49,039 bases of DNA, taken from Acidimicrobiia bacterium. GTDB lineage: Bacteria; Actinomycetota; Acidimicrobiia; Acidimicrobiales; CATQHL01. The stretch is taken from assembly GCA_021296415.1 (NCBI GenBank), contig JAGWAL010000018.1:1-49039 (forward strand), in the 5' to 3' direction. Below the pieces are notes generated by a model. That model searched no databases. It saw only the letters and a program-made list of their open reading frames with translations, and was not told where the DNA came from. Positions 1-35,753 of this stretch are shown here, in pieces. The translations under genes and the position numbers were made by a program. Position 1 is the first letter of the stretch. The number at the start of each line of letters is the position of its first letter.

Positions 1-1206
1 GAACAGCACGCCCACCCTCGCTCCGTCCGCTACGAGCCCCTCGCGGTGAGCCGCCAGCAGTCCCGCCAGGCCGGCCGTACCCGTCGGATCCACCGGCACG
101 TCGGTCCAGCGCCGGGCCAGGGCGTGGGCCTCGGCCACCAGGTGCTCCGGGGCCACCACCACGTCGCCTCCCGTGGCCGCCAAACCCCAGGCGATCGGCA
201 GCCAGTCGTAGGTCACGTCGTCGAGGATTCCCGTGGCAATGCTCTGGGGGGTGTCTCCCTGCGGCGGCGCCCACGGCTGCATGAAGCGTCCGGGTTCGCC
301 CGCGGCAACCTCCAGGGCGGCGTCGATCCCCCGATCCGCGCCAAGCGCCGAGAGCCGGTCCCAGGCCTGACGCAGCGGAGCGCAACCCTCGGTCTGCACC
401 GCGTAGAACGCCGGCAGCCGGCCGATGGCACCCGCATCGGCTGCCTCGACGAAACCCTGCACCACGCTGGACGCAAGCGCCCCGCCGCCCACCTGCACGA
501 ACACAGCGTCCAGGTCTCCCGTCCCCCCCAGTGACTCGATCATCTCGAACGCCAGCGTGCGCCCGCCGTCGATGGTCCAGACGTTCTCGGCGGCGACCGC
601 ACAGAACGGGAGGGCGCCCGCCGCCACCGCATCCCGGAACCGACCGAAGCACGGGTCGCCGGCCTCGCCGCCGACCCGCGGGCAGACCTGGATCCTCGCC
701 CCCAGCACGTCCAGCGCCTCGACGATGGTCTCATCGGCCCATGGGGGGATGAAGACGTCCAGCGGGCGGTTTGCGGCGCGCGCCACGGTCGCCGCCGCCA
801 GGGCGGCGTTCCCACAGGAGGCAATGGCCAAACGCCTCCCGGCAGCCACCCCCTCGGCCTCGAGGTGCAACGCCAGGCCCATGAGATGGCGCGCCTTGTG
901 GGTGCGCGTGACATTGTCGGTCTCGGCCTTGACCCAGAGTTCGACCCCCAACCGCTCGCCCAGGGCCCGTGCCCGCGACGTCGGGGTCACCCGGAATCCC
1001 CGCCCGTCGATCTCGGCAATCCGGCGGTCGAGGCGTTCGACGGTCGCCACGAAGTCGGCGTCGCCGCCCCCGGACTCGGCGAACCGCCGGTGGGCCCAGA
1101 GCATGCGCCGGTAGCGCAGGAAGGGGTTGTGGCTGCCGGTGTCGACGTCGTAGCGGGCACCGGCCGGCGATCCCAACCAGCCGTTCTCGGCCGTGAGACG
1201 GTTCAT
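1..1206 (-). CDS. PLP-dependent fold-type II enzyme, threonine synthase/dehydratase-like (3' end cut by window)
   Basis: The frame is open from an ATG at 1206 to the window edge, giving 402 residues without a stop, so the C-terminus is missing. The sequence looks like a fold-type II PLP enzyme (threonine synthase, Ser/Thr dehydratase or diaminopropionate ammonia-lyase relatives). The motif TRTHKARH carries the probable Schiff-base lysine at about residue 104. ASCGNAALAAAT follows, matching the S-x-GN substrate loop, and VQVGGGALASS resembles the phosphate-binding glycine loop. The start lies 19 bp after the stop of a second PLP enzyme, so the two are probably co-transcribed. The reaction cannot be assigned; an amino-acid lyase or beta-replacement enzyme is inferred. 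Confidence 0.8.
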   Translation of the reverse strand, partial: MNRLTAENGWLGSPAGARYDVDTGSHNPFLRYRRMLWAHRRFAESGGGDADFVATVERLDRRIAEIDGRGFRVTPTSRARALGERLGVELWVKAETDNVTRTHKARHLMGLALHLEAEGVAAGRRLAIASCGNAALAAATVARAANRPLDVFIPPWADETIVEALDVLGARIQVCPRVGGEAGDPCFGRFRDAVAAGALPFCAVAAENVWTIDGGRTLAFEMIESLGGTGDLDAVFVQVGGGALASSVVQGFVEAADAGAIGRLPAFYAVQTEGCAPLRQAWDRLSALGADRGIDAALEVAAGEPGRFMQPWAPPQGDTPQSIATGILDDVTYDWLPIAWGLAATGGDVVVAPEHLVAEAHALARRWTDVPVDPTGTAGLAGLLAAHREGLVADGARVGVLF

Positions 1207-21356: not shown

Positions 21357-22073
21357 TCAGCGCGCCGTCAGGCCCGTGGCGAGGACGAGGAGTTGCCGGA
21401 GGATTGCCGCCGTGGCGCCCCAGATGGTGTCGCCGGGGATCTCGAAGAAACTGATCGGCCGCAGGGTGCCGTCTCGAGGCCAGAGCTCCTGACGGTAGAT
21501 CTCCGGCGCCAGCAGCTCGCTCAGCGGCACGTGGAGGATCTTCTCGACCTCGGCGGGATCGGGACGCAACCCCTCGGGGCGGCCCGCGGGCAGCTCGGCA
21601 ACGTACGAATACACCAGCGAGTCGCTGCCAACCGTGAAGAACGGGGTCAACTCGCCGATGCGGACCGCGGCGGCGGGATCCAGCCCGATCTCCTCCTGCG
21701 CCTCCCGGCGGGCGGTCGCCCAGAGGTCGGCGTCGGCCGGTTCGCGGCCGCCGCCGGGGAACGACACCTCGCGACCGTGGGTGCGCAGGTGCGATGCGCG
21801 CCGGGTGAGAATGACGGTGGTCTCGCCCCGATCCAGGTAGAGCGGGATCAGCACCGCCGAGAGCCGTTGCGAAGTCTCCGCGGAGCGCACCGCGGGAGGC
21901 TGCTCCTGTAGCCGGCGCGCCAGGGCATCCAGTTCGACCCGGCGCGCCGCCCCCGGGAGTTCCGACCACGGCGCGGGCGCACCCGGGCGCGCGCCGGCCG
22001 GGCGCGGGATGAATTGGGGACCGCCGTGGCCGGCGGGGATCGCGGCGAGAGGTGGCGGGGGCTCGCTGCTCAC
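21357..22073 (-). CDS. NUDIX hydrolase, CoA pyrophosphatase type
   Basis: This 238-residue protein carries the NUDIX box GGGREPADADLWATARREAQEEIGL (split here: GGGREPADADLWATA then REAQEEIGL), preceded by LTRRASHLRTHGREVSFPGG, a signature of the CoA diphosphatase (NudL/PCD1) subgroup that hydrolyses CoA to phosphopantetheine and adenosine 3',5'-bisphosphate. The Pro-rich first 40 residues are probably disordered. The GTG start overlaps the stop of the P1 peptidase gene by 4 bp. The following 171 bp to the decarboxylase gene hold no recognised gene. Confidence 0.88.
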   Translation of the reverse strand: MSSEPPPPLAAIPAGHGGPQFIPRPAGARPGAPAPWSELPGAARRVELDALARRLQEQPPAVRSAETSQRLSAVLIPLYLDRGETTVILTRRASHLRTHGREVSFPGGGREPADADLWATARREAQEEIGLDPAAAVRIGELTPFFTVGSDSLVYSYVAELPAGRPEGLRPDPAEVEKILHVPLSELLAPEIYRQELWPRDGTLRPISFFEIPGDTIWGATAAILRQLLVLATGLTAR

Positions 22074-23002
22074 GAAGTGCCGCCGGATCCGGTGCCGGTG
22101 TCCTCGGCCCGCGCAACGGCGGCGCGCACGGCGTCGGCTACCGCAACCGTGGCGGCGACCCGCACGGTGTCGATGGAGGCCTCCACATCGCCGACGGACG
22201 CCGCGATCAGGGCGTCGCCGTCGAAGCGGGTGTGCGCCGGCAGCAGGGCGCGCGCCAGGCCGTCGTGGCCACTCTGCGCTACGAGCAGGCAGTCGAGCTT
22301 GGTGAGGCGCACGTTGGTGCAGATGAGACCGATCGTTGTGCTCGTGCCGAGCGGCGGACGCTCGGGAGGCTGGAACCTCCCCGAGCGCAGCGAGTGTTCC
22401 ACCGAATCGCCGTCGAGATCACCTGCGGCATTGACCGCCAGCAGCGCGACCACGATGGCCTCCCCGCTGCCTGTCGCTGCGAACCGCAACTGCGCCGAGC
22501 CCAGCCCGCTGGGTGCCCGCGTCGAGCGCCAAGAGCCCACGGTGGCACCGGCGCCGGCGCCGAACGGCCCCGCCGGCCAGCCGCCGGCGGGACCGGGCCC
22601 GGCCGGCACCGAGGCCGTGCGGGCCGCCTCGTAACCGGCGTCGGCTCCGGGCCAGACAGGGGGTTCACCGGGACGCAGGTCGTACAGGGACAGCCCGGCG
22701 ACGATGGGCACGGGCCCGGCCGGCGTCGGGTAGCCACGCCCGGCCTCGGCGCAGTAGCGCATGACACCCTCGGCGGTCGCCAGCCCGAAGGCCGAGCCGC
22801 CGGATAGCACGACCGCGTCGATTCCCGGCACGGTCCGCTCGGGTGCCAGCAGATCCAACTCGCGGCTGGCGGGCGCGCCGCCGCGGACCTCGACCGACGC
22901 GACGGTTCCCTCGGGCAGCAGCACAACGGTGCAGCCGGTGCACCCGCTCGGGTGCGTCCAGTGGCCGACGCGCACTCCGTCGAGGGCCCGACGCCCGCTC
23001 AT
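22070..23002 (-). CDS. P1 family peptidase (S58, DmpA/OAT-like fold)
   Basis: This 310-residue protein resembles the DmpA/beta-peptidyl aminopeptidase family of self-cleaving N-terminal nucleophile hydrolases. Seen: GVRVGHWTHPSGCTGCTVVLLPEG, DAVVLSGGSAFGLATAEGVM, and SGLGSAQLRF, where the Ser in GLGSA is the expected autocleavage site and nucleophile. Near the C-terminus, GDALIAASVGDVEASIDTVR is typical. Substrates are N-terminal residues of amides or small peptides, not further predictable. GGGAG precedes the ATG at 23002. It overlaps the NUDIX gene by 4 bp. Confidence 0.87.
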   Translation of the reverse strand: MSGRRALDGVRVGHWTHPSGCTGCTVVLLPEGTVASVEVRGGAPASRELDLLAPERTVPGIDAVVLSGGSAFGLATAEGVMRYCAEAGRGYPTPAGPVPIVAGLSLYDLRPGEPPVWPGADAGYEAARTASVPAGPGPAGGWPAGPFGAGAGATVGSWRSTRAPSGLGSAQLRFAATGSGEAIVVALLAVNAAGDLDGDSVEHSLRSGRFQPPERPPLGTSTTIGLICTNVRLTKLDCLLVAQSGHDGLARALLPAHTRFDGDALIAASVGDVEASIDTVRVAATVAVADAVRAAVARAEDTGTGSGGTS

Positions 23003-23118
23003 GAGGCTCCCGCACTCACCGGCGACCGGCGGCCGCCCGCGGGACTCCGGGCCCGGCGAGCTGTCCTCGGCCGTGGCTCGGAACGAGAGAGGTGTGCACG
23101 GTCAGCGGGTCTTCGGTC

Positions 23119-24270
23119 TCAGCAATAGTGCCGACGGACCCGCCGGCCCACGTCGCAGACCACCTCGTACGGGATCGTGCCCAGGCTGTCGGCCACGTCG
23201 GCGGCGCTGATGCTCTGATCGCCCTGCGTGCCGATCAGCACGGCTTCGTCACCGACGGACACGTCGCTCTCCTGCCCGCAATCCACCATGAGTTGGTCCA
23301 TCGTCACGACCCCCACCACAGGCCGCCGCCGGCCCCTGATCAGCACGGCTCCACCGCGCAGCCCGTAGTCGCGCCGGACTCCGTCCGCGTAGCCGATGGG
23401 CAGCGTGGCCACATCACTGTCGGAGTCGAGCCGGTACGCCAACCCGTAGGAGACACCCTCACCTGCGGCAACGCTCTTGACGAACGAAACCTGCGTCTGC
23501 AGTTGCATGACGGGACGCAGCCCCTGCACCTCGTTCCGGAGTTCGGCACTGGGCGGCAGCCCGTACAGGGCGATCCCGGCCCGGACCATGTCGTAGCGGC
23601 CGCGGCGCCGGATGGGTGAGGCATCCGGCCGGCCGGCGGCCAGGAGCAGGGCAGAGTTGGCGGCATGGCGGCGGAACGATCCCGGCTCGGGCGCGCCGAG
23701 ATCGGCCTCGAGAGCCTTCAGCACCTGCTCGTAGCGTTCCAACTGCACGTCGGTGTGGGGATTCCCCAACTCGTCGGCCACGGCGCAGTGCGTCCAGACA
23801 CCTTCCAGATGCAGTTGCGCCCTGGCCTCGATGGCACTCGCCAGCAGCGCCACGTCGTCGGGGTGGGCACCGACCCGGTTCATGCCGGTGTCCACCTTGA
23901 GGTGCACCCGGAGTCGACGGTCGCCCGTCGTGGCCGCCGCGGCCGCCGCCGCCAGTCCGGTGGCGCTGTAGACCGATGGGCGCAGGTCGTAGGCCACCAC
24001 CTCCACCATCTCGGTGGGCCGTGGCTCGGACAGCAGCAGGATCGGTGCCGTCACACCCGCCTGGCGCAACTCGATGCCCTCCTCCACGAGAGCCACCGCC
24101 AGCCAGGTGGCTCCGCCGGCGAGCGCGGCCCTGGCGGTGGCCACTGCCCCGTGCCCGTAACCGTCGGCCTTGACCACGGCACACAACCCCGCAGGGGCCG
24201 CCCGGCGGGCAAGTTCGGCGGCGTTGGCCTGCAATGCCGCCAGGTCCACGATGGCCGAGGTGGGTCGCAT
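23119..24270 (-). CDS. alr: Alanine racemase
   Basis: This 383-residue PLP enzyme interconverts L- and D-alanine for peptidoglycan. The N-terminal TIM-barrel block LCAVVKADGYGHGA has the PLP lysine, and VDTGMNRVG lies mid-barrel. The C-terminal part includes GVSYGLAYRLDSDS with the catalytic Tyr, ATLPIGYADGVRR, and VTMDQLMVDCG. The length matches the family. The ATG shares one base with the nnr stop (TGATG), so it is coupled to nnr. Confidence 0.96.
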   Translation of the reverse strand: MRPTSAIVDLAALQANAAELARRAAPAGLCAVVKADGYGHGAVATARAALAGGATWLAVALVEEGIELRQAGVTAPILLLSEPRPTEMVEVVAYDLRPSVYSATGLAAAAAAATTGDRRLRVHLKVDTGMNRVGAHPDDVALLASAIEARAQLHLEGVWTHCAVADELGNPHTDVQLERYEQVLKALEADLGAPEPGSFRRHAANSALLLAAGRPDASPIRRRGRYDMVRAGIALYGLPPSAELRNEVQGLRPVMQLQTQVSFVKSVAAGEGVSYGLAYRLDSDSDVATLPIGYADGVRRDYGLRGGAVLIRGRRRPVVGVVTMDQLMVDCGQESDVSVGDEAVLIGTQGDQSISAADVADSLGTIPYEVVCDVGRRVRRHYC

Positions 24271-25715
24271 CAGCGGGCGACGATCCCTTGATCGACCGGG
24301 CGCGACGACGGCTCGAGCGCCGCGGCCAGCGCTGCGGGGATGGCTCCCAGCAGATCCCCGGCGATGAGGCCCACCGGCGGCGAGAGGGAGCCGGCCATGC
24401 CGTGCACGTGCGCGGCCAGGGAGGCGGCGTCCAGCGGCTCGGCGCCCTGCGCCAGCAGAGCGCCGATCATCCCGGCCAGCACGTCCCCGGTGCCCGCCGT
24501 GGCCAGGCGGGCGTCGCCGGAGGTGATCAGGCGGGCCGCGCCGTCGGGCGCGGCGACGACGGTCGTGGGTCCCTTCAGGAGGACGTGGGCACCGGCCGCG
24601 GCAAGCGACCGCGCCGCCGCCGGACGGTCGGGCCCGGCGCGCCGGCCTGCCAGCAACTCGTACTCACCGTCGTGCGGCGTCAGCACCACCGGCGCACGCG
24701 CCGCCGCCAGGACCGACGCCGGGTCTCCGCCGAGGGCCGCCAGGGCGTCGCCGTCCAGCACCAGCGGCACCGTCGCCCGGGTGACCAGCGCCCGCACAGC
24801 GGTCGCCGTCTGCGGATCTCTCCCCAGGCCGGGACCGACCACGAGCGATCCGAACCGCGAGGTGTCCATCCGCTCGTGCCAGGCCGCTGCGGGCAGCGGG
24901 TGGAACACCACCTCGGTGGGGACGGCGGCGTCGGGCTCGCCGCCCGGCACCGAGAGCCGCACATAGCCCGCGCCCGAGCGCAGAGCCGCCAGGGATGCCA
25001 GGGCCGCCGCGCCGCGCATCGTCGACGAGCCCGCCACCACCCAGCAGGCCGAGCGCCACTTGTGCGCGTCGTCGGGCCGCCGCGGCCACGACCCGGTGAC
25101 GTCGCCGGTGGTCACGAGGTGCGCCGTGGCCGAAGCCACGTCCAGGCCGATGTCCGCGATGCTCACCGACCCCGCCAAGCGGCGTCCCGGCTGCAGCAGC
25201 AGTCCCGGCTTCAGGGCGGCGAACGTGACCGTCCGCGTCGCCGCCAGCACACCGCCGCGCACCTCCCCTGTTAGGCCGTCCACCCCCGAGGGGATGTCAG
25301 TGGCCAGCACCGGCATCCCCGACGTCAGGGGCGGCGGCGTCCAGGGCCGGTTCAGCCCGGTGCCGTACGCAGCGTCGATCAGTAGATCACCCGGCGGGAT
25401 CGCGGCGACGTCGGGGGCGATCACGCGGCACTCGGCGCCGGCGCGCTGCAGGTGGCGGGCCGCAGCCCGGCCGTCGGCGCCGTTGTTGCCGCGCCCTGCG
25501 AGGACGACCACCCGGCGACCCGCCAGCGCCTTCCGGCGCGTGCCCGAGGTCCGCCCGCCTTCGAGGATCCTGGCAGCACCCTCGCTGGTGCAGGTCAGCA
25601 TCTCCGCGGCGGCGACGGCGACCGCGGCCCCGGCCCGCTCCACGAGCACGTCCGTGCCCTCGGGGGCGGCGGCGTCGATGGCCGCCATCTCCGCAGGGGT
25701 GACGACCGGGATCAC
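24270..25715 (-). CDS. nnr: Bifunctional NAD(P)H-hydrate epimerase / ADP-dependent dehydratase
   Basis: This 481-residue fusion repairs damaged NAD(P)H hydrates. The N-terminal YjeF_N epimerase domain (about 1-210) has VVLAGRGNNGADGRAAARHL and ATDIPSGVDGLTGE. The C-terminal ribokinase-fold dehydratase (about 225-475) has VVGPGLGRDPQT, VLTPHDGEYELLAG and TAGTGDVLAGMIGALL with the catalytic Asp. The NNGADG loop has Ala where NNGGDG is usual. The GTG start lies 121 bp after acpS, and the gap contains a perfect inverted repeat. Confidence 0.93.
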   Translation of the reverse strand: MIPVVTPAEMAAIDAAAPEGTDVLVERAGAAVAVAAAEMLTCTSEGAARILEGGRTSGTRRKALAGRRVVVLAGRGNNGADGRAAARHLQRAGAECRVIAPDVAAIPPGDLLIDAAYGTGLNRPWTPPPLTSGMPVLATDIPSGVDGLTGEVRGGVLAATRTVTFAALKPGLLLQPGRRLAGSVSIADIGLDVASATAHLVTTGDVTGSWPRRPDDAHKWRSACWVVAGSSTMRGAAALASLAALRSGAGYVRLSVPGGEPDAAVPTEVVFHPLPAAAWHERMDTSRFGSLVVGPGLGRDPQTATAVRALVTRATVPLVLDGDALAALGGDPASVLAAARAPVVLTPHDGEYELLAGRRAGPDRPAAARSLAAAGAHVLLKGPTTVVAAPDGAARLITSGDARLATAGTGDVLAGMIGALLAQGAEPLDAASLAAHVHGMAGSLSPPVGLIAGDLLGAIPAALAAALEPSSRPVDQGIVAR

Positions 25716-25792
25716 GACGGGCTGCCTCCCCCGGCGGCCCGATGATGGCCGAGAGGCGGGTGGCCGGTGCAGGCCCAGTCGCTGGACGGTGG

Positions 25793-25812
25793 ATCCCGGC
25801 CTTCGCCGGGAT
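25793..25812. repeat. Perfect inverted repeat, REP-like hairpin
   Basis: ATCCCGGC-CTTC-GCCGGGAT forms an 8-bp perfect stem with a CTTC loop, followed by GACC. The flanking phrase resembles short intergenic palindromes found in many copies in other bacteria. It lies in the 121-bp acpS-nnr gap and could stabilise or attenuate the operon mRNA. No T-tract is present. Only one copy was seen in this window. Confidence 0.6.
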
Positions 25813-25836
25813 GACCGATGGGGCTGGCGGCGCGGG

Positions 25837-26244
25837 TCACGTCTCGTTGCCGTTCTCGAGTGGGCCCGGCTCGGGTGCGCCCGGGACGACGGCCACGGCC
25901 ACGGCGACAGCCAGATCGGCCGTGTGCGACAGGCTCAGATGCCAGCCCGTCACTCCGGCATCGGTGGCGCGCGCCGCCGCCCGACCGCTCAGTCGCAGGC
26001 CGACCTGACCGCTGCGGGCGCGGGTGACCTCGACCTCCCTGAACGCCACGTCCCCGAACCCGGCGCCCAGCGCCTTCATGGCCGCTTCCTTGGCGGCGAA
26101 CCGCACCGCCAGGCGCTCGGCCGGATCGGAGCGGCCCTCGGCGTAGGCCCGCTCGGCAGGAGTGAACAGCCGCTCAGTGATGCGCGGGCGGCGCGCCAGC
26201 AGCGCACGGAACCGCGGTACCTCCACGATGTCCACGCCGATCAT
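25837..26244 (-). CDS. acpS: Holo-[acyl-carrier-protein] synthase
   Basis: This 135-residue enzyme transfers 4'-phosphopantetheine from CoA to the acyl carrier protein. Seen: MIGVDIVEVPRFRALL with the metal-binding Asp, FTPAERAYAEG, RFAAKEAAMKALGAGFG with the second metal ligand Glu and the conserved Lys, and WHLSLSHTADLAVAVAVAV. The C-terminus runs about 12 residues past the usual end (PGAPEPGPLENGNET). The ATG overlaps the stop of the large GlmS-like gene by 4 bp (ATGA). Confidence 0.95.
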   Translation of the reverse strand: MIGVDIVEVPRFRALLARRPRITERLFTPAERAYAEGRSDPAERLAVRFAAKEAAMKALGAGFGDVAFREVEVTRARSGQVGLRLSGRAAARATDAGVTGWHLSLSHTADLAVAVAVAVVPGAPEPGPLENGNET

Positions 26245-29200
26245 GGCGCCGCTTCGCGCCAGCGCGCGGCCACAGCGCCGATGTCGCCGGCCAGCAGTTC
26301 CACGGTGGGCACCGCCGCGAGGAGCGCCTCGTCGAAGGACGACTCGGTCTCGGTGACCGCGTAACGGAGCCGGCTGTACCGATCGCGATAGCGGCGCAGC
26401 ACGGTGGCGGCGGTCGCGGCGGGCAGGCGCTCGTGCAGGTCCACGTGGAGCAGCACCAAGCCCACGGTCTCCCCGCCCTTGATCTGGGGCACCAGGACGA
26501 TGAGGCGCCCGTCCCGCAGGCCCTTCGTCAGCAACACCCGTTGCTCCCGGCTCACCTGGCGCTTCGTGCCGCGCAACGTGGGGTCGCGGCTGACGCGCGA
26601 CTCGATCCCGGCCGCCACGCCGGACCGGTCGACGATCTCGATCCGCTCGTCGTCGATGACATAGCGGATGTAGCCGGTCACCGCCGCGACGGCCGGATCG
26701 AGTCCCGTCAGCGTCGACAGCGTGTCGTAGCTGAGGCGTTCGGGAGCTGCGCCCGCGGCCCGGACGGCCGCCACCAGCGGCACGCTCCACAACGCATCCT
26801 CGCTGCGGGAGATCCCCACGGTGACCGTCTTGGCCTGGTGACGTATGGCGTCGACGGGGCGGGCCAGTTCCTCGGCGGCCTCGGTCAGCGCGGCCAGCAG
26901 CCGCTCGAGTACCCCCGCGGGCGTCCCCATCTCGCCGTAGTCAATCTCGAAGGCAGCCAGCGGGAGTACGCCAGTGGCATAGCGGAACAGGCCATCCAAC
27001 TGCGCGGCGGTTCCCGCGGGCAGGTGACCGTCGTAGCGACCCGCGCGCAGTTGCCGACCGAATTGCTCGGCCCCGGCGGCGATCTCCGTCGACAGGCCGG
27101 CGAGCAGATCCTCCGCATCGGCGACGGCGCCGTCGGGTGCGGCGTCGAAGGCGGCCTCGATCGACCCCCGGGTGCGCCGCAGCGGCTCGGCACCCGCATC
27201 GATCGCCAGAGCCGCCTCGTAGCCGAAGAGGTGGCCGGCCACGGTGACCAGCACGAACGACAGGTCCGGGTGGACGGCGGGCAGCAGCACCGAGTCCCCG
27301 GTGGCGCGCGCCAACTCGGCGTCGTCGGTCAACACCACCGGGGCCGCCCGGTGCGCCGCGTAGATGGCGATCTCCTTGGCGACGTCGCGCGCCGTGGAGC
27401 GTTCCAAGCCCGCGGCGCAGACCAGGACCAACGGCTCGGCCGAGAGATCGATGTGCTTCTTGTCCTCCGTGACGTCGCACGCCACCGACCGGTAGCACAA
27501 CTCCGAGAGCTTGATGCGCAATTCTTCCGCCGCCAGCCGGTTGCGCCCGTTGCCGACGGTGGCCCAGTGGCGCCGCGCCGGGGCGAGTCGCTGGGCGATG
27601 TCGGCGATCCGCGAGCGTGACTCCAGAACCTCCGCCATGGCGGTGGGCAGATGTTCGAGAGCCTCCAGCAGCCCTTGGCGGCGATCGGGATCCACGGGCG
27701 GCAGCCCGAAGCCGTCGACGATGGCATAGGCCAGCAGGAAGCCCGCCGCGACCTGGGCGTAGAAGGCTTTGGTGGAGGCCACGCTCATCTCGACGTCGCG
27801 GCCATCGGAGGTGTACAGCACTGCGTCGGCGCGCGCGGCCAGGTCACTCTCCCGGCGGTTCACGACAGCGATCACCGAGGCGCCCCGGGCCTGGACCAGG
27901 TCGACGGTGCGGTTGGTGTCGGTGGTCGTGCCCGACTGGCTCACCGCAACCACGAGGTGGTCCGACATGTCGTCCGCCAGCCCGAAGCCGGACAGTTCGC
28001 TGGCCAGGCAGGCCGAGACCTCCACGCCGGCGCCGGACAACTCCGCGCCGATGATGTCGGCAATGGCCCGGGCGGCCACCGCCGCGGTGCCCTGCCCGAT
28101 CACGAGGATCCGTCGCGGCAACTCCCCCTCTGCCGGCAGGATCCCGTCCAGGGCCACGCTGCGCCGAGCAGGATCTCCCGCCAGCCGGCCGCGGAGCGTC
28201 TTGGCGAAAGAGCCGGGGGACTCGCTGATCTCCTTCAGCAGGAAGTGCGGGTAGCCGCGGCGGTCTATGTCGCGCGTCGTGATGACCGCCGTGCTCACCG
28301 GTGGCAACGGCACTTCGGCACCGTCGTAGGACCAGCGCGCCACACCATCGATCCGGCCCGCATCGGCGGCGTCCAGCCGCACGAGCTCGCCCTCGCCTGC
28401 GGAGCCGCCGCCGTCGGCACCGTCGAAGCGAAGATAAGCGCTGGTCTGCTCCACCAACCCGTACGGTTCGGAGGCCACCACGAAGGCGTCGCTCGCCAGG
28501 CCCACGTACAGCGCCTGACCGCTGCCCCGCCGGGCGAGCAGCAGGCGTCCGGGGACGTCCGTGGCCACCGACACGATGGCGTGCGAACCTTCGCATGCCC
28601 CGACCGCGTCGGCAAACGCCGCGGTGTCGGATCCGCCCGGTCGGCGCAGGCGGCGGGTGAGCCCGGGGACCACCCGAGCGTCGGTGGTGACGGCTCGGGG
28701 ATAGGTCAGGTCGTACCGGGTACCCACGGCGGCGTAGTTGTCGATGTCGCCGTTGACCGCGGCGAACACCCAGGGCGGTCCGTCGCCTGTGAGCGAGGCG
28801 ACGGGATGGGCGTTGGGCTCGGTGATCAGGCCGACGCTGGCCCAGCGGGTGTGCGCCAGGACCGCGCAGTGCGCGCCCGGCCGCGCCAGCGCCGCCCGCA
28901 AGGACCCATCGCCGGCGAGGGCCGACCTCAGAACCTGCGTGTTGTCGCCCAGGTCACCGACCTCGATCGCCGTCTTGTAGACATAGACCGAGGTGCCGGC
29001 GTCGTGCCAGCGGCTCCCGGTACGCCCCAGGACGTCGGATGCCGCGGCGTCCGGATCCAGCGGCTCATCGGCGGAGACGACCACCGCGATTCCCGCCGAG
29101 TCCCGGCCGCGCACCTCCAGGCGGTCCAGGGCCGACAGCGCCACTTGGATCGACCACCAGGCCGCCACGAGCCCCTCCGTGGCGGCCGGCGCATCCTCGC

Positions 29201-29498
29201 CGAGGAGGTCGGCCACCGCCGAAGCGCCCGCCAGCCGGTCCTCGCGGATGCACCAGAGCGGGTCGGCCAGTGGGCCATCGTCGTCAGCGAGGCGCCCGAC
29301 CGACTCCGCCACCTCGGCGCGCAGCGCCGCGTCGCGCACGAGACAGGTCAGCCCCGCCGGTCCGGCGAGCCGCTCCGCCAGCGCCGGCGCGCCGCTGCGC
29401 AACTCGTCTCCCTGCCCACCGAGCAACCGCCGGATCTCCGAGGCGTCGGCCGGTCGGCGGCTCGGGGGGCGGCTGAGGACCGCCACGATCCCGCACAT
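26241..29498 (-). CDS. glmS: Oversized GlmS-like protein (glutamine-fructose-6-phosphate transaminase, 1085 residues)
   Basis: Canonical GlmS is about 610 residues. This one has the N-terminal nucleophile Cys2 (MCGIVAVL) and then an insertion of about 115 residues before VRGRDSAGIAVV (about 129-140, usually YRGYDSAG near residue 30). The amidotransferase continues with LAHTRWASVG, PNAHP and NGDIDNY. LLKEISESPGSF starts the isomerase part, SIS1 has AVSQSGTTTDTNRT and EMSVASTKAF, and SIS2 has VGNGRNRLAAEELRIKLSEL and KKHIDLSAEP. About 275 further C-terminal residues (about 810-1085) have no recognised family. The context after glmM supports glucosamine-6-phosphate synthesis, but the activity of this variant is inferred. 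It overlaps glmM by 1 bp and acpS by 4 bp. Confidence 0.85.
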   Translation of the reverse strand: MCGIVAVLSRPPSRRPADASEIRRLLGGQGDELRSGAPALAERLAGPAGLTCLVRDAALRAEVAESVGRLADDDGPLADPLWCIREDRLAGASAVADLLGEDAPAATEGLVAAWWSIQVALSALDRLEVRGRDSAGIAVVVSADEPLDPDAAASDVLGRTGSRWHDAGTSVYVYKTAIEVGDLGDNTQVLRSALAGDGSLRAALARPGAHCAVLAHTRWASVGLITEPNAHPVASLTGDGPPWVFAAVNGDIDNYAAVGTRYDLTYPRAVTTDARVVPGLTRRLRRPGGSDTAAFADAVGACEGSHAIVSVATDVPGRLLLARRGSGQALYVGLASDAFVVASEPYGLVEQTSAYLRFDGADGGGSAGEGELVRLDAADAGRIDGVARWSYDGAEVPLPPVSTAVITTRDIDRRGYPHFLLKEISESPGSFAKTLRGRLAGDPARRSVALDGILPAEGELPRRILVIGQGTAAVAARAIADIIGAELSGAGVEVSACLASELSGFGLADDMSDHLVVAVSQSGTTTDTNRTVDLVQARGASVIAVVNRRESDLAARADAVLYTSDGRDVEMSVASTKAFYAQVAAGFLLAYAIVDGFGLPPVDPDRRQGLLEALEHLPTAMAEVLESRSRIADIAQRLAPARRHWATVGNGRNRLAAEELRIKLSELCYRSVACDVTEDKKHIDLSAEPLVLVCAAGLERSTARDVAKEIAIYAAHRAAPVVLTDDAELARATGDSVLLPAVHPDLSFVLVTVAGHLFGYEAALAIDAGAEPLRRTRGSIEAAFDAAPDGAVADAEDLLAGLSTEIAAGAEQFGRQLRAGRYDGHLPAGTAAQLDGLFRYATGVLPLAAFEIDYGEMGTPAGVLERLLAALTEAAEELARPVDAIRHQAKTVTVGISRSEDALWSVPLVAAVRAAGAAPERLSYDTLSTLTGLDPAVAAVTGYIRYVIDDERIEIVDRSGVAAGIESRVSRDPTLRGTKRQVSREQRVLLTKGLRDGRLIVLVPQIKGGETVGLVLLHVDLHERLPAATAATVLRRYRDRYSRLRYAVTETESSFDEALLAAVPTVELLAGDIGAVAARWREAAP

Positions 29499-30784
29499 CA
29501 GCCGGCCCGCCGCGCGACTTCGGCCGCCAGGGATTGCGCCGTCGACGCGGCCTCCGCCTCGCTGGGTGCCTCCACCATCACACGGATCAGCGGCTCGGTT
29601 CCCGACGCCCGCACCAGCACCCGGCCCCGCTCGCCCAACTCCTCGCGCGCCTTGCGGACGGCGGGCTCGATGGCTTCCAGCACGTCCGTGGCCCCGCGAC
29701 CGGTGGCCACGTTGCGCAACACCTGGGGGTAACGCGTCATCGCGGCCGCCGCCAGGTCCCCCGGCCGCTCCCCCCGCCGAGCCGCCACATCCAACAGCTG
29801 CACGGCCGTGAGCAGGCCGTCACCCGTGGTGGCGAGATCCCGGAAGATCACGTGGCCGGACTGCTCGCCGCCCAACTCCCAGCCCCCGGCTTCCAGCGCG
29901 CTGAGGACGTGCCGATCGCCCACCGGCGTGGTCACGACGTCGATACCGGCCTCGGCCATGGACCGGTGCAGGCCGATGTTGCTCATGACCGTCACGACAA
30001 TCGTCGAGCCCGCCAGCCGACCGCGTTCGTGGCGGTCGATCCCGCAGAGGGCGATGATGTGGTCACCGTCGATCAACCGCCGATCGTAGGCCACGACCCG
30101 GTCGCCGTCGCCGTCGAACGCCAAGCCGATCTCACCGGGTCGCGTCTCGCCGGCGATCATGCCGGGCGAGGCCGCCCCGCAGCCGTCGTTGATGTTCCGC
30201 CCGTTCGGCGCGCAGGCGACGGTGCGCACGGAAGCGCCCAGGCGCCGCAGCAGTGCCGGCGCCGGCAGCGAGGTCGCTCCGTTGGCACCGTCGACCACAA
30301 GCCGCATCCCCTCGAGTGCGCCGGGCCGCACCGTCGCCGCCACCGCGTCGAGGTACGCCTCCAGCCGGCCCGAGGCGTCGACGCCGACCGCGCGGGAGGC
30401 ACGCGGGTCGGCGGCTGCCTCGAGGGCGGCGGCCACCGCCTCCTGCTCGCCGTCGCTGAGCTTCCGTCCCCCGGGTCCGAAGATCTTCACCCCGTTGTCC
30501 TGGTACAGGTTGTGCGACGCCGACACCACGATGCCCGGCACCTCGTCGGTGGCGCTGAGAAACGCCACGGCGGGCGTGGGGGCCACGCCCAGCAGGTCCA
30601 CCTGGGTGCCACCCAGCCCGCGCAGCAACCCGTCGATGAGGTCTCCCGCAGAGGACCGTGGATCGTGCCCCAGAACCACCCGCTCGCAACCGAAGGTGGC
30701 GACGACCGCGGCGCCGATCCGGGCGGCGATCCGGGGGGTCACGTCCCGGTAGGCGCGCCCCCGTATGCCGTCTGTACCGAACAC
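29498..30784 (-). CDS. glmM: Phosphoglucosamine mutase
   Basis: This 428-residue enzyme converts glucosamine-6-phosphate to glucosamine-1-phosphate for UDP-GlcNAc. Seen: MFGTDGIRGRA at the N-terminus, VVSASHNLYQDNG with the phosphorylated Ser (about 90), metal site AFDGDGDRVV, sugar loop WELGGEQSGH, and phosphate-binding RASGTEPLIRVM. The stop shares one base with the next ATG (TGATG). It lies 10 bp after rpsI. The glmM-glmS pair feeds the first amino-sugar precursors of the cell wall. Confidence 0.96.
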   Translation of the reverse strand: MFGTDGIRGRAYRDVTPRIAARIGAAVVATFGCERVVLGHDPRSSAGDLIDGLLRGLGGTQVDLLGVAPTPAVAFLSATDEVPGIVVSASHNLYQDNGVKIFGPGGRKLSDGEQEAVAAALEAAADPRASRAVGVDASGRLEAYLDAVAATVRPGALEGMRLVVDGANGATSLPAPALLRRLGASVRTVACAPNGRNINDGCGAASPGMIAGETRPGEIGLAFDGDGDRVVAYDRRLIDGDHIIALCGIDRHERGRLAGSTIVVTVMSNIGLHRSMAEAGIDVVTTPVGDRHVLSALEAGGWELGGEQSGHVIFRDLATTGDGLLTAVQLLDVAARRGERPGDLAAAAMTRYPQVLRNVATGRGATDVLEAIEPAVRKAREELGERGRVLVRASGTEPLIRVMVEAPSEAEAASTAQSLAAEVARRAG

Positions 30785-30794
30785 GTCCGAACCG

Positions 30795-31211
30795 CTACGA
30801 CGGCTCGTGGCGGCGCAGGCGCCTCTTGGAGTACTGCGGAGCCTTCCGAGCCTTCTTCAGCCCGTACTTCTTGGACTCCTTCTTGCGCGGGTCCCGGGTC
30901 AGCAAGCCGGCACGCTTGAGCTTCTCGCGGCAATCTCCGTCGAGAGTCTCGAGCGAGCGGGCGATACCGAGGCGGAGCGCCCCCGACTGGCCCGTGAGAC
31001 CCCCGCCCGAGATCGTGGCATCCACGTCGTACACCGAGGCGGTGTCGGTCACGCGGAGGGCCTCGATGGCACCGGAGCGGTGGGCGGGCGACGGGAAGTA
31101 GTCCTCGAGGTCCCGACCGTTGATGACGACCCGGCCTTCGCCCGGCCGGATACGGACACGGGCCACGGCCCGCTTGCGGCGACCTGTGGCTTGGACGAGC
31201 GGCGGTGTCAT
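30795..31211 (-). CDS. rpsI: 30S ribosomal protein S9 (uS9) with extended C-terminus
   Basis: This 138-residue uS9 has [14 protein letters not shown] at its start and [17 protein letters not shown] near its end. In known bacterial uS9 the chain stops at the Ser-Lys-Arg whose terminal Arg touches P-site tRNA. Here eight more residues (RLRRHEPS) follow before TAG. The sequence was checked codon by codon in the given strand. The ATG overlaps the rplM stop by 4 bp. Confidence 0.95.
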
Positions 31212-31651
31212 GGAGTTCTCCTGCCGAGGGGCAGCGGCTGCGGTTTCTGGGCTTCGTGGGGATGGGCCGGTCCGGCGTAGACCTTGAGCTTCCGGAGCAT
31301 CTGGCGACCCAGGCGGGTGTGGGGCAGCATCCCGCGGATGCTACGGCGCACGAGCTCGGCGGGTCGCCGCTGCAGCGCGGTTCCCAGGGTCTCCGATCGC
31401 AGGCCACCGGGATAGCCCGAGTGCCGGTACAGGACCTTCCGCTCGGCCTTGCCCGCGGTCGTGACGACCTTCTCGGCGTTCACGATGATCACGTGGTCAC
31501 CGCAGTCCAGATGCGGGGTGTAGATCGGCTTGTGCTTGCCCCGCAGGACGCGAGCCACCTCGGTCGCCATACGTCCGAGCACCTGACCCTCGGCGTCGAC
31601 GATCCACCAGGCGCGATCCAATTCCGAAGCCTTGGGGCTGTACGTATGCAC
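31208..31651 (-). CDS. rplM: 50S ribosomal protein L13 (uL13)
   Basis: This 147-residue protein matches uL13: [60 protein letters not shown] and [20 protein letters not shown]. The start is GTG 31651; the open frame continues upstream into truA but lacks homology. A TATCCT box six bases before the GTG implies its own leaderless promoter, opening the rplM-rpsI-glmM-glmS-acpS-nnr-alr series. It is separated from truA by 50 bp. Confidence 0.95.
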
Positions 31652-31657
31652 ACCGCA

Positions 31658-31663
31658 AGGATA
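31658..31663 (-). promoter_or_regulatory. Candidate -10 box of a leaderless promoter (rplM)
   Basis: TATCCT on the minus strand, six bases before GTG 31651. It is in the 50-bp truA-rplM gap and would separate rplM-rpsI and the downstream cell-wall genes from the alpha operon. Confidence 0.5.
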
Positions 31664-31701
31664 CGGGGTGGACGTCGGAATCGGCTGCGGACCGGGCCGG
31701 C

Positions 31702-32475
31702 TCATGCGTAGGCCACCGACTGCAGGCACAGGCCGTGCGGCGGGGCCACCGGCCCTGCCACCGCCCGATCCCTGCTCGCCAGGATCCGACGCATGTCGCC
31801 GGCGGGTCGACGACCCCGACCCACTTCGGTGAGGGTCCCGACGATCGAGCGCACCATCTGCCGGCAGAAGGAGTTGGCGGCGATGTCGAACAGCAGGACG
31901 CCGCGCTCGGGGGTGCTCCAGACGGCGTGCAGGACCCGCCGCGTGGTGGGAGCGACCCGCTCGGTGCCGTCGACGGTCTGCGTCGCCTTCGAGCAGAACG
32001 AAGCGAAGTCGTGCTCGCCCACCAGCAACGCCGCGGCCTCGACCATGGGAGCGACCTCGAGAGGGTCGGGGATGTGCCAGGACACCGCCCGGCGGAAGAC
32101 GTCGGGTTCCGGCGCGTTCCAGATCGTGTAGCGATAGGCCCGAGACAGCGCCGAGAAGCGAGCGTCGAAGTCGCCGGACACCTGCTCGATCGCCAGGACG
32201 GCCACGTCGGGTCCGCACATGCGGCTCAGCCCGCTGCCGAGAGCCTCGAGCCGTCCGGCCGACGCGTCCTCGTCGGCAACGTCCAAGCTCACGACCTGCC
32301 CGCGCGCATGAACGCCGGCGTCGGTGCGCCCGGCGCACGTCAACTGCACCGGGTAGCCCAGCCGTCGCCCGAGTGCGTCGGCGAGGACACCGCCGACCGT
32401 CCGCACACCGGGGTTCGGGGTGAAGCCGCGAAAGGCCCCTCCGTCGTAGGCGACCCGAAGGCGCAGGCGGGCCAC
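31702..32475 (-). CDS. truA: tRNA pseudouridine synthase A
   Basis: This 257-residue enzyme modifies uridines 38-40 in the anticodon arm. Seen: LRVAYDGGAFRGFTPNPG at the N-terminus, CAGRTDAGVHARGQVVSLD with the catalytic Asp, SRAYRYTIWNAPEPDVF, LLVGEHDFASFCSK and DIAANSFCRQMVRSIVGTLTEVG. The length and motif order match TruA. It lies 15 bp after rplQ, in the place commonly seen in actinobacterial alpha operons. Confidence 0.95.
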   Translation of the reverse strand: MARLRLRVAYDGGAFRGFTPNPGVRTVGGVLADALGRRLGYPVQLTCAGRTDAGVHARGQVVSLDVADEDASAGRLEALGSGLSRMCGPDVAVLAIEQVSGDFDARFSALSRAYRYTIWNAPEPDVFRRAVSWHIPDPLEVAPMVEAAALLVGEHDFASFCSKATQTVDGTERVAPTTRRVLHAVWSTPERGVLLFDIAANSFCRQMVRSIVGTLTEVGRGRRPAGDMRRILASRDRAVAGPVAPPHGLCLQSVAYA

Positions 32476-32490
32476 GCCGCGGTGCGCCGG

Positions 32491-32844
32491 CTAGACGAGT
32501 TCGATTCGGGCCATCGGGGCGTTGTCCCCGTAGCGCGGGCCCATCCGCAGGATCCGGGTGCAGCCGCCGGCGCGATTCGCGTAGCGCGGACCGATGTCGG
32601 AGATCAGCTTGTCGGCGATCTCGCGGTCGTGGAGAAACGCCACGATCTGGCGGTGGTTGTGCAGACCGCCCTTGCGCGCCTTGGTGATCAGCTTCTCGGC
32701 GACGGGCTGCATGGCCTTCGCCTTGGCCTCGGTGGTCACGATGGATTCGGCCGCCACGAGGGAGGCGACGAGGTTGGCCAGCATCAGCTTCTGGTGTGAG
32801 GCGCTTCCGCCGAGGCGGCGGCCCTTGCGGGGTCGGCCGGGCAT
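32491..32844 (-). CDS. rplQ: 50S ribosomal protein L17 (bL17)
   Basis: This 117-residue protein has the bL17 signatures RKGRRLGGSASHQKLMLANL, LVAAESIVTTEAKAKAM, EKLITKARKG and GGCTRILRMGPRYGDNAPMA, ending in IELV. It assembles near the polypeptide exit tunnel. It follows rpoA by 13 bp, as in the standard alpha operon. Confidence 0.96.
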   Translation of the reverse strand: MPGRPRKGRRLGGSASHQKLMLANLVASLVAAESIVTTEAKAKAMQPVAEKLITKARKGGLHNHRQIVAFLHDREIADKLISDIGPRYANRAGGCTRILRMGPRYGDNAPMARIELV

Positions 32845-32857
32845 GATCGTCTCGACC

Positions 32858-33790
32858 TCAGTCCGCTGACGCCAGAGCGAGACCCAACTCGTCGAGACGG
32901 GCCGTCACCTCGTCCAGCGACTTCTCGCCGAAGTTGGGGATCGCCAGCAGCTCGAGCGGCGTCCTCTCCAGGAGCGCGCCGACCGTCGTGACCTGCGCCC
33001 GCTTCAGGCAGTTGCGCGGCCGTTCCGAGAGCCCCAACTCGTCGATCGGCCGCTGCAGATCCGAGGGCAAATCGGGCGCGGCCGCCGGGTCCAGGCTGTC
33101 GGGCAGCGACACCTCGGCCAGATTCTCCACGAGCTGCGCCAGCCGGCGCAGGATGCCGCCCGCCGTGGCCATCGCCTCCGACGGCGTGATCGTCCCGTCG
33201 GTGAGCACGTCCACCACCAGCTCGTCGAAGGTGATGTCCCGCTCCCCGGGCGACGGCTCCACCTCGAAGGCAACGCGGCGCACCGGCGAGAAGAGGGCGT
33301 CCACCGGTACGTCGCCGATGGTGCCGCTGCCGGGACGGCTCTCGGCGCCCAGGTAGCCGATTCCCTGCTCCACGGTGACGTCGGCGGCGAAGCGCGCCCG
33401 GCCGTTGAGCGTGGCGATATGGAGTTCGGGGTTCAACACCTCGACGTCGGGGTTGACACCGAAGTGCGCGCCCGTGACCTCCGCCGGACCTAGCACGTCG
33501 ATACGCAACTGCACCGGTTCGGGGCTGTGGCTGTGCAGGACCAGGTCCTTGAGGTTCAGGATGATGTCGGAGATGTCCTCGACCACCCCGTCCAGCGTGT
33601 CGAACTCGTGCAGCGCCTCGTCGAAGCGGACGTGCGTCACCGCTGCACCCGGGATCGACGAGAGCAGCGTGCGCCGCAGCGCGTTGCCGATCGTGTAGCC
33701 GAATCCCGGCTCGAGCGGGCCGATGACGAACTTCTGCCGGTTGTCCTCGGCAGTCCCCACAGAGACGGCGGGATGTTTGATCTCAAGCAT
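32858..33790 (-). CDS. rpoA: DNA-directed RNA polymerase subunit alpha
   Basis: This 310-residue alpha subunit nucleates core polymerase assembly and contacts UP elements and activators. The NTD has FVIGPLEPGFGYTIGNALRR and TLLSSIPGAAVTHVRFDEAL. The CTD (about 245-305) has LSERPRNCLKRAQVTTVGAL and IPNFGEKSLDEVTARL. I chose ATG 33790, which begins MLEIKHP; the frame is open further upstream but without homology. The gap from rpsD is 17 bp. Confidence 0.97.
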   Translation of the reverse strand: MLEIKHPAVSVGTAEDNRQKFVIGPLEPGFGYTIGNALRRTLLSSIPGAAVTHVRFDEALHEFDTLDGVVEDISDIILNLKDLVLHSHSPEPVQLRIDVLGPAEVTGAHFGVNPDVEVLNPELHIATLNGRARFAADVTVEQGIGYLGAESRPGSGTIGDVPVDALFSPVRRVAFEVEPSPGERDITFDELVVDVLTDGTITPSEAMATAGGILRRLAQLVENLAEVSLPDSLDPAAAPDLPSDLQRPIDELGLSERPRNCLKRAQVTTVGALLERTPLELLAIPNFGEKSLDEVTARLDELGLALASAD

Positions 33791-33807
33791 GTACAACCTC
33801 GCTGGAG

Positions 33808-34425
33808 CTACTTGCTGTAGAGCTCGACAATCAACTGCTCGCGGATGGGAACGTCGATCTGATCCCGCGTGGGTACCGACACCACGTTCGCGGCCCAGCC
33901 CTCCTCGACGACGTCGAGCCAGATCGGCGGTACCCGATCCAGGACATCGACGTTCCACTGCAGAATTGTCATGGCGCGCGCCTTGTCGCGCACGGAGACG
34001 ACATCGTCGGCGGTCACGCGGTAACTCGGGATCGTGACCCGACGATCATTGACCGACACGTGGCCGTGCCCCACGAACTGCCGCGCCTGGGGGCGGGTGG
34101 CCGCCCAGCCCGCTCGATACACCACGTTGTCGAGGCGCAACTCGAGGTAGCTGAGCATGTTCTCCCCGGTGACACCCGAGCGGCGGCTGGCCTCGGCATA
34201 GAGATTGCGGAACTGGCGCTCGGTGAGGCCGTAGGTGAAGCGGGCCTTCTGCTTCTCCTGGAGTTGGACAAGGTATTCCGAGGCGGTCGTCCGGCGCCGC
34301 GAGCGGCCGTGCTCGCCCGGCGGGTAGGGGCGCTTGTCGAGCGCCACCGTCTCGCCCTTGGTGCCGAAGATGTTGATGCCCAGGCGGCGCGACACCCGTG
34401 ACTTGGGCCCGGTGTAGCGCGACAT
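33808..34425 (-). CDS. rpsD: 30S ribosomal protein S4 (uS4), zinc-free type
   Basis: This 205-residue protein begins [20 protein letters not shown] and has KRPYPPGEHG, EKQKARFTYGLTERQFRNLY and the S4 domain RLDNVVYRAGWAATRPQARQ. The N-terminal region has no Cys, so it is the zinc-free (C-minus) form. uS4 starts 30S assembly and often regulates its operon. The ATG shares a base with the rpsK stop (TGATG). Confidence 0.96.
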   Translation of the reverse strand: MSRYTGPKSRVSRRLGINIFGTKGETVALDKRPYPPGEHGRSRRRTTASEYLVQLQEKQKARFTYGLTERQFRNLYAEASRRSGVTGENMLSYLELRLDNVVYRAGWAATRPQARQFVGHGHVSVNDRRVTIPSYRVTADDVVSVRDKARAMTILQWNVDVLDRVPPIWLDVVEEGWAANVVSVPTRDQIDVPIREQLIVELYSK

Positions 34426-34817
34426 CAGACCCGCCGCCTCTTCGGTGGCCGGCACCCGTTGTGCGGGACGGGGGTGACGTCCTTGATGCCGGTGACCTCC
34501 AGGCCGAGGTTCTGCAGCGAGCGGATGGCGGTCTCGCGGCCCGATCCCGGCCCCCGCACCTGGACGTCCACCTTGCGCACGCCGAACTCCATGGCCCGCC
34601 GAGCCACCTCCTCGGCCGCCATCTGCGCGGCGTACGGCGTCGACTTGCGTGATCCCTTGAATCCCACGTTGCCGGCCGAGGCCCAGGCGACCACGTTCCC
34701 CCGCAGGTCCGTGACGGTGATGATCGTGTTGTTGAACGAACTCTTGATGTGCACGACGCCGTGCCCGATGTTCCGGCGCTCGCGGCGGCGTGGCCGCCGT
34801 GCCTGTCTTTCTGCCAT
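34425..34817 (-). CDS. rpsK: 30S ribosomal protein S11 (uS11)
   Basis: This 130-residue protein matches uS11: [57 protein letters not shown] and the end [13 protein letters not shown]. It sits at the 30S platform and helps shape the mRNA exit channel. It is followed by rpsD with a 1-bp overlap. The 105-bp gap to rpsM is the longest in this part of the alpha operon and holds only weak palindromes. Confidence 0.97.
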
Positions 34818-34922
34818 GACCCCTCGGTACGTCTCTTGAGCGGTGCGATGCCGCGACCAACTGACCGCGGTTACCGATCGTGGTGGTTCGGCGCCCCGAT
34901 CAGCGCCGCTGCCACTTCTGCC

Positions 34923-35306
34923 TTACTTCCTCTTCATGACGGTCTTCTTGCCCGCCACCGTCTTGCGCGGCCCCTTGCGCGTCCGGGCATTGGTATGGGT
35001 GCGCTGACCACGCACCGGAAGGCCCCGGCGGTGCCGGATGCCCTGGTAGCAGCCGATTTCCAGCTTGCGACTGATGTCCTGGCCGATGCGGCGGCGCAGG
35101 TCACCCTCGACCTTGAGATTGCGCTCGATGTACGCCCGGAGGCGGGCCACCTCCTGCTCGGTGAGATCCTTCACGCGCACGTCGGGGCCGATGCCGACCT
35201 CCTCGCAGGTCTGCGCGGCAACGCTGGCACCGATGCCGAAGATGTACGTGAGCGACACCACGGCCCGCTTGTTGCGCGGGATGTCGACGCCGGCGATGCG
35301 CGCCAC
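34923..35306 (-). CDS. rpsM: 30S ribosomal protein S13 (uS13)
   Basis: This 127-residue protein has [59 protein letters not shown] and the basic tail [19 protein letters not shown]. uS13 is in the 30S head and contacts P-site tRNA and uL5 across the subunit interface. The start lies 1 bp after the rpmJ stop. Confidence 0.97.
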
Positions 35307-35307
35307 G

Positions 35308-35421: not shown

Positions 35422-35494
35422 CTCCGTATCCGCCTCGTCTCGTCGTCTGCTCAACCGCCGAGCGGGGCGCGACTCTCGCTCGCTTCGGGGGTTG

Positions 35495-35719: not shown

Positions 35720-35726
35720 AACTCTA

Positions 35727-35731: not shown

Positions 35732-35753
35732 GCCTCGAACGCGACCTACCAGG

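Follow-up and report, generated by a model that had tools for sequence, protein, structure and literature searches.

Glucosamine-6-phosphate (GlcN6P) is the first amino sugar of the cell wall, and GlmS, the enzyme that makes it, is a textbook enzyme; what, then, is a glmS-like gene of nearly twice the normal size doing in an actinobacterial genome? The gene lies on contig JAGWAL010000018.1 of Acidimicrobiia bacterium (assembly GCA_021296415.1), of which a stretch of 49,039 nucleotides, referred to here as the window, was analyzed. Its intact open reading frame (26241-29498, minus strand) encodes 1085 residues with the N-terminus Met-Cys-Gly-Ile and is thus, as a preliminary description of the sequence had pointed out, far longer than the canonical GlmS proteins of other members of the class (608-609 residues), by a factor of about 1.8. 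The results presented below suggest that this protein, together with its relatives of the same architecture (hereafter long forms), is quite probably the cell's own glucosamine-6-phosphate synthase, converting glutamine and fructose-6-phosphate to GlcN6P and glutamate, in a distinct form in which the catalytic C-terminal tail (C-tail) has become internal.

In GlmS, the C-tail is described in the available text of PMC8041777 as a mobile C-terminal element that carries residues of both active sites. The ordinary catalytic C-tail, DAIRHQAKTVTVG, was found inside the long protein and not at its end. When 30 long forms were aligned, the canonical C-terminal peptide DVDKPRNLAKTVTVE, with which the proteins of class-mates end, corresponded to DAIRHQAKTVTVGIS at residues 883-897; a further 190 residues follow residue 895, leaving the C-tail without a free C-terminus. 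Positions 882-895 are highly conserved: these 30 long forms came from a whole-protein search, and 12 of the 14 positions are invariant in them, as are 10 of 14 in a 60-row alignment, where positions 880-897 contain no gap and 14 of 18 are invariant, this second alignment having been gathered with C-tail patterns and being therefore biased toward proteins that kept the C-tail. In a wider set of 48 long forms (28 from a profile search), the peptide is present in 47, the exception being L155, whose open reading frame stops before it. The structural alignment ends with model residue 892 against residue 605 of E. coli GlmS (2j6h), the same register as that of the sequences, which pairs Lys890 with Lys603. 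The tail is more than a plain addition, because the peptide with the catalytic lysine lies within it. The preliminary description had left about 275 residues after the second SIS domain unassigned; in fact, 316 residues follow residue 769, and the extra sequence is real (residues 770-881 and 896-1085), but residues 882-895 between these two parts are the canonical C-tail.

The restraint on the C-tail appears to differ as well. In E. coli, a bridge between Arg331 and Glu608 restrains this element, as stated in the part of PMC8041777 available. In the long forms, Glu608 of the canonical end is replaced by an invariant Gly895, and neither of the two candidate places for Arg331, whose position is uncertain by alignment, holds a conserved Arg: residue 503 is Ser in 60/60 sequences, and residue 506 is Arg in 9/60. 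Thus, the anchor is not kept in the long form, a loss that is in line with a chain continuing past the C-tail. The canonical GlmS proteins of class-mates have no Arg at column 506 either, but do have one (EFRYR) at the other candidate place.

Upstream of the tail, the glutaminase and isomerase landmarks occur in the expected order, as the preliminary description had recognized. Pfam detects one SIS and one GATase_6 domain above their cut-offs, and a search of PDB sequences matched GlmS and glutamine:fructose-6-phosphate amidotransferase (GFAT), best over residues 211-765. The full-length AlphaFold model (predicted local distance difference test score, pLDDT, 87.8; predicted template modelling score, pTM, 0.77) has human GFAT-1 (6r4j and others) as its top structural match (Z 42.9, 611 residues), with a Z-score within 2 of that for E. 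coli GlmS 2j6h_A (VIA alignment of model 2..892 on chain 1..605: Z 41.3, root-mean-square deviation (rmsd) 2.9, 592 residues); identity to GlmS and GFAT over these alignments is 20-24%. Conserved residues were examined under E. coli numbering, with the roles that we take them to have in GlmS. The equivalents of Cys1, Arg73, Trp74, Asn98, Gly99, Asp123, Thr302, Ser347, Gln348, Ser349, Thr352, Val399, Lys485, Glu488, His504, Ala602, and Lys603 are invariant in 60/60 long forms, the counts for Cys coming from sets that were started at the CGI motif and in which rows without one are contig-truncated. Among the 30 long forms from the whole-protein search, Lys890 is present in 30/30 and, of the residues checked, only Thr352 varies (29/30; Ser in one row); the C-tail is likewise kept in 47/48 long forms of the wider set.

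The distribution of the gene is consistent with this assignment. Within its own genome, an assembly that is 77.5% complete, the second, normal glmS for which the preliminary description had proposed a check was not found: the long gene was the only match, and no protein exceeded the GlmS cut-off. Among 60 relatives, own genome included, 38 carry the long form, 21 only a canonical-type protein, and one neither. In a sample of 296 genomes from the class, the long form occurs in 115 and a GlmS above the cut-off in 159; no genome has the two together, and 22 have neither (the tail profile matched 116 genomes, of which one, G043, by chance; in this comparison the 159 were represented by 160 genomes whose best E was 1e-120 or below). 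Of the 38 Planctomycetota genomes positive for the tail, one (G735) has another GlmS-type protein over the cut-off. This homologue, L133, is not a long form and is devoid of the equivalents of the Cys, Trp74, Asn98, Glu488, and the C-tail Lys, so that it looks like an inactive, degenerate GlmS beside the long form.

The long gene also occupies the canonical glmS operon slot. It lies within a tightly packed run, glmM-glmS-acpS-nnr-alr, a wall-precursor operon, as the earlier remark on its position before acpS, nnr, and alr had implied; in many long-form loci rpsI, rplM, and truA lie further upstream of glmM. Genes of the glmM/rpsI/rplM group precede the long gene in 59 of 64 full-length loci with enough flank, and acpS/nnr/alr follow it in 56 of 60, the misses including three planctomycete-titled loci with none of these genes; the canonical glmS genes of class-mates (L031-L034) sit between glmM and acpS or nnr. 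No searched wall-operon gene lies near the long forms of the planctomycete-titled loci L084, L091, L095, and L108 (the last titled Kuenenia). A frameshift, fusion, or assembly error was ruled out as the origin of the long frame, because congeners have a protein of the same length (72-79% identity) and the ratio of nonsynonymous to synonymous substitution rates (dN/dS) for the whole gene is 0.23; the architecture is common to the congeners and 70 full-length loci.

What follows the C-tail resembles a sensor domain. When the last domain was modelled alone (residues 889-1085) from an alignment holding 63 of 65 possible rows, the mean pLDDT was 93.3 and the pTM 0.88, and its structural matches were to PAS and GAF domains, with Z-scores of 6.7-8.8 and mostly over 70-99 residues among the 50 matches listed. 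PAS and GAF domains are common sensor or dimerisation folds, and such a fold would suit the earlier suggestion that the tail binds a partner or the product pathway. The top Foldseek match (E 1.1e-3) was to mycobacterial large glutamate dehydrogenase (GDH; 7jsr), in a range that, judged by the domain order given in the available part of PMC8175468, is probably its PAS region; 7jsr also aligned over 162 of 197 residues, the most of any VIA match (the next, 99, among the 50 listed), at Z 8.8, rmsd 5.0, and 14% identity. This likeness is one of fold, without sequence-profile support, and its Z-score is tied with that of a GAF domain (8.7). Homology to large GDH was unsupported by profile comparison in both directions: hhalign gave a probability of 0.3% against 20 actinobacterial GDH N-terminal segments, and hmmsearch gave a best E of 0.0066 (L174), or 0.042 in reverse, within these small sets. 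The own genome yielded no large GDH match. Thus, only a fold class is suggested for the last domain. In Pfam, none of the 13 families matched by the 63 tail-domain members is PAS or GAF (best E 0.013), tail profiles found nothing credible among PDB sequences, and for the extra parts as a whole neither Pfam, NCBIfam, nor PDB sequences gave a credible match. The preliminary description would have counted wide annotation of these parts in many phyla against its reading; they are widespread in genomes but lack annotation in the libraries searched. A second protein family with the tail domain was rejected, as weak matches in G043, G290, and G599 (E about 2e-4), presumably to methylmalonyl-CoA mutase, were taken as chance, and the search for the family in plasmid records gave no match. 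Within the domain, 22 of 188 positions are invariant in 60 sequences, among them the polar residues Tyr924, Tyr946, Arg968, Lys979, Asp996, Arg998, His1018, Tyr1037, Arg1040, and Glu1050.

The remaining additions lie within the glutaminase domain and before the C-tail. About 103 extra residues (11-101 and 106-117) separate the nucleophile strand from RGRDSAG, so that the insert reported there earlier is present, although not with the estimated 115 residues; two smaller glutaminase inserts (141-166 and 192-206) were absent from that account, and two further inserts of under 10 residues each distinguish the protein from canonical GlmS. The N-terminal insert is the least conserved large module, with 5 of 98 positions invariant and a length of 97-150 residues in the 60 long forms. 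Pfam searches with 30 of its members gave single chance matches only, and in a PDB profile search most matches were to coiled coils, designed or viral, none better than E 0.0024, while MutL and others scored weaker still; these matches are read as helix composition. In eight congeneric sequences (28 pairs), dN/dS was 0.44 for this insert, 0.25 for the glutaminase, 0.18 for the SIS region, 0.20 for the helical insert before the C-tail, and 0.21 for the C-tail with the PAS-like domain. Every module is thus under purifying selection, and the N-terminal insert is the least constrained.

Taken together, the residues, predicted fold, C-tail register, either-or occurrence, operon slot, and purifying selection make the synthase role of the long form well supported, whereas the enzyme activity itself is something we infer, with indirect support from the either-or occurrence with canonical GlmS. 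Several observations weigh against this view of the protein. Scores on the NCBIfam GlmS models TIGR01135 and NF001484 (230.7 against a cut-off of 381, and 214.4 against 418) are so far below the curated cut-offs, which 7/7 long forms missed and a canonical control (L032) passed at 830.9 and 816 bits, that the family models do not vouch for activity. The long form is not always the sole GlmS, as two genomes outside the class sample, Aquihabitans sp. G128 (one of 12 genomes in its sample) and G372 of another class (one of 9), hold both, and strict exclusivity of the two forms was accordingly rejected as a rule. Model residues 891-900, at the end of the C-tail, have a pLDDT under 50, one of the lowest-confidence parts of the model, which would be unsurprising for a mobile loop. 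Matches to PAS/GAF domains are of medium strength (best Z 8.8 at rmsd 5.0; best Foldseek E 1.1e-3, none at or below 0.001). A C-terminal His tag had little or no effect on human GFAT2, according to the available text of PMC7948480, and a buried C-terminus, by analogy, need not have functional meaning. Finally, the equivalent of Ser303 is Ala in 60/60 long forms; the canonical GlmS of Aquihabitans also has Ala at this place. This last substitution, together with the Thr found for Ser347 in 13/48 of the wider set and the deep divergence of the long forms (a branch of 6.4 changes per column in the midpoint-rooted drawing), could be taken to mean that the protein is a relative aminating a sugar phosphate other than fructose-6-phosphate. 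Such a role is very improbable: the long form replaces canonical GlmS in the 115 of 296 class genomes that have no other GlmS over the cut-off, its gene adjoins glmM, and the remaining sugar- and phosphate-site residues checked are kept in all 60 sequences.

If the long form is the cell's GlcN6P synthase, the question becomes what its added domains do. Cys2 would hydrolyse glutamine, and the ammonia would pass to the double-SIS isomerase, where Lys890 of the C-tail would, like Lys603 of E. coli, open or hold the sugar. In ordinary GlmS, this element is a free mobile end that closes over both active sites; here it would run directly into the PAS/GAF-like domain and be anchored on either side, by that domain and by the helical insert, and domain pairing or a ligand could set how easily it closes. 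Control of C-tail closure by the PAS-like domain, through dimerisation or a bound metabolite, is accordingly a conjecture drawn from this arrangement. In one version, the enzyme is subject to metabolite-sensing feedback, the domain binding an end product or a nitrogen signal and thereby locking or freeing the C-tail. This may quite possibly be so, given that the domain comes directly after a mobile catalytic peptide and has invariant polar residues, that an Rfam search at gathering score found no match, hence no known glmS ribozyme, in window positions 22000-36000, and that the VIA match with the most residues is the PAS region of large GDH, proposed as a metabolic sensor in the available part of PMC8175468; against it, the likeness to large GDH is confined to the fold and ties with GAF, and any ligand is putative. 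In another, GlmS activity is ordinary and the additions only stabilise a dimer or larger assembly, with no signal passed. PAS and GAF domains often dimerise, and the N-terminal insert is weakly conserved, both of which suit such a scaffold, as does the tag tolerance of human GFAT2; 22 invariant positions of 188, several of them polar, are more than a spacer should need. Plain scaffolding has a comparable, less than even, chance of being right, and sensing and scaffolding are judged about equally probable. More tentatively still, the long forms may represent a GlmS lineage, in at least Actinomycetota and Planctomycetota, in which the C-tail came to serve as an internal link to a PAS/GAF-like domain that senses a metabolite, forming a protein-level allosteric switch on the first amino-sugar step of the wall that would replace the RNA-level control of model bacteria. 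The preliminary description had instead placed the control at the N-terminal insert, which might gate glutamine entry or ammonia or sense a ligand. The insert does branch off directly behind the nucleophile strand, and the model shows it as helical, but it has the weakest conservation of the large modules, the highest dN/dS, and no credible family match, and a structural or docking role would suit it equally; gating by this insert is unlikely, and the proposal did not gain support.

The long form is not confined to Acidimicrobiia. A scan of GTDB r220 contigs with C-tail patterns found at least 565 loci, of which the best 80 were mostly titled as Acidimicrobiia, Acidimicrobiales, or other Actinomycetota; after exclusion of 10 without a gene start at a contig end, 5 with GTG starts, and 6 near-duplicates, 59 of these and the window formed the 60-row alignment. 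The tail profile matched 32 of 396 sampled Actinomycetota genomes (one, G599, by chance) and 38 of 294 Planctomycetota genomes (two weakly). A tree of 595 core columns and 53 rows (the window, 19 of the 70 full-length loci, 30 of the 47 proteins L115-L161, and 3 of the 4 canonical proteins L031-L034) separated 48 long forms from five canonical-type rows with 100/100 support. The window and the acidimicrobial sequences fell within a group of 27, also supported at 100/100, in which some of the Planctomycetota rows were nested too, the others lying outside it. Because the Planctomycetota sample holds a greater diversity of long forms than Acidimicrobiia does and because of this nesting, the tree, which samples two phyla, is midpoint-rooted, draws on metagenome bins, has flagged long branches, and is weak at its deeper forks (80/41, 87/83, 89/76), favours an old form that was transferred into Acidimicrobiia and took over the glmS slot there.

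The long form is a variant of a known enzyme rather than a novel kind of system, and its design is found in many bacteria, from two phyla or more. With canonical bacterial GlmS (TIGR01135, NF001484; E. coli 2j6h/1jxa) it has in common the N-terminal nucleophile (Ntn) glutaminase, the double-SIS isomerase, the catalytic residues, the C-tail peptide, and the operon slot seen in class-mates; it differs in being about 476 residues longer, in its internal C-tail, and in its N-terminal, pre-C-tail, and C-terminal additions (Table 1). Human GFAT-1, which is under feedback by UDP-N-acetylglucosamine in the available account (PMC8041777), is likewise a GlmS-type enzyme regulated at the protein level, whereas the large additions of the long form lie after strand 1 and before and after the C-tail. 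Among the matches listed from the open-licence PubMed Central literature, no title or abstract opening described a long GlmS whose C-tail is internal. A natural GlmS with a folded domain after its mobile C-tail makes control through this element directly testable. In addition, these results suggest that in many Acidimicrobiia and some Planctomycetota the GlcN6P synthase goes unrecognized when annotation relies on family models. The glmSMU genes are described, in the available part of PMC10632474, as lost in most Planctomycetia and essential in Planctopirus limnophila, and missed long forms could bear on that reported pattern of loss.

Table 1. Features of the long glmS gene and its neighbours in the window (residue numbers refer to the 1085-residue protein)
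Feature	Position	Strand	Basis
alr, alanine racemase	23119..24270	-	Pfam Ala_racemase N and C
nnr, NAD(P)HX epimerase/dehydratase	24270..25715	-	Pfam Carb_kinase and YjeF_N
acpS	25837..26244	-	Pfam ACPS; start overlaps glmS stop by four bases (ATGA)
Long-form GlmS, 1085 residues and stop	26241..29498	-	Open reading frame; NCBIfam GlmS models below cut-off; model aligns with GlmS/GFAT at Z 41-43
C-terminal PAS/GAF-like domain, residues 896-1085	26244..26813	-	AlphaFold model of 889-1085; Foldseek and VIA matches to PAS/GAF domains
Catalytic C-tail, internal, residues 882-895 (VDAIRHQAKTVTVG)	26814..26855	-	Conservation; structural alignment; Lys890 = E. coli Lys603
112-residue helical insert before C-tail, residues 770-881	26856..27191	-	Alignment; model helices 771-785, 795-801, 803-818, 828-842, 847-854, 860-886
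Double-SIS isomerase region, residues 408-769	27192..28277	-	Pfam sees one SIS; VIA 2zj3 isomerase domain, Z 42.8, 354 aligned, rmsd 2.4, model 412..894
Class-II glutaminase (Ntn) domain with its inserts, residues 1-407	28278..29498	-	Pfam GATase_6; VIA 1xff_B, Z 30.9, 236 aligned, rmsd 1.8
15-residue glutaminase-domain insert, residues 192-206	28881..28925	-	Alignment to canonical GlmS
26-residue glutaminase-domain insert, residues 141-166	29001..29078	-	Alignment to canonical GlmS
N-terminal helical insert, residues 11-117, of which 102-105 align with canonical GlmS	29148..29468	-	Alignment to canonical GlmS; model helices 19-26, 31-43, 46-55, 57-68, 78-105
Nucleophile strand, residues 1-9 (MCGIVAVLS)	29472..29498	-	Cys2 = E. 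coli Cys1; Cys in 60/60 and 30/30 long forms
glmM	29498..30784	-	Pfam PGM_PMM I-IV; one-base overlap with glmS start (TGATG)

Several individual long forms depart from the general pattern. Aquihabitans sp. G128 has a long form at the operon position together with a canonical GlmS, seemingly complete, at another locus (L067, L115), which makes the two a natural test pair. The 13 proteins of the wider set with Thr in place of Ser347 in the sugar-phosphate loop (TQSG) are all planctomycete long forms (L148, L134, L151, L158, L153, L143, L136, L146, L149, L160, L157, L150, and L142). The two long forms that diverge most, L137 and L156, have open frames of 1232 and 1426 residues and retain DAIKHQAKYITVG; their match to the tail profile ends at positions 233-234 of 316, so that their last domain may differ. 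Divergent Planctomycetota long forms (L136, L137, L142, L143, L146, L149, L150, L151, L153, L156, L157, and L160) have about 35-60 residues, often with GTIVFFP or similar, between a plausible Met and the Cys2 equivalent, a propeptide-like stretch, unlike the compared canonical GlmS proteins, which start with Met-Cys.

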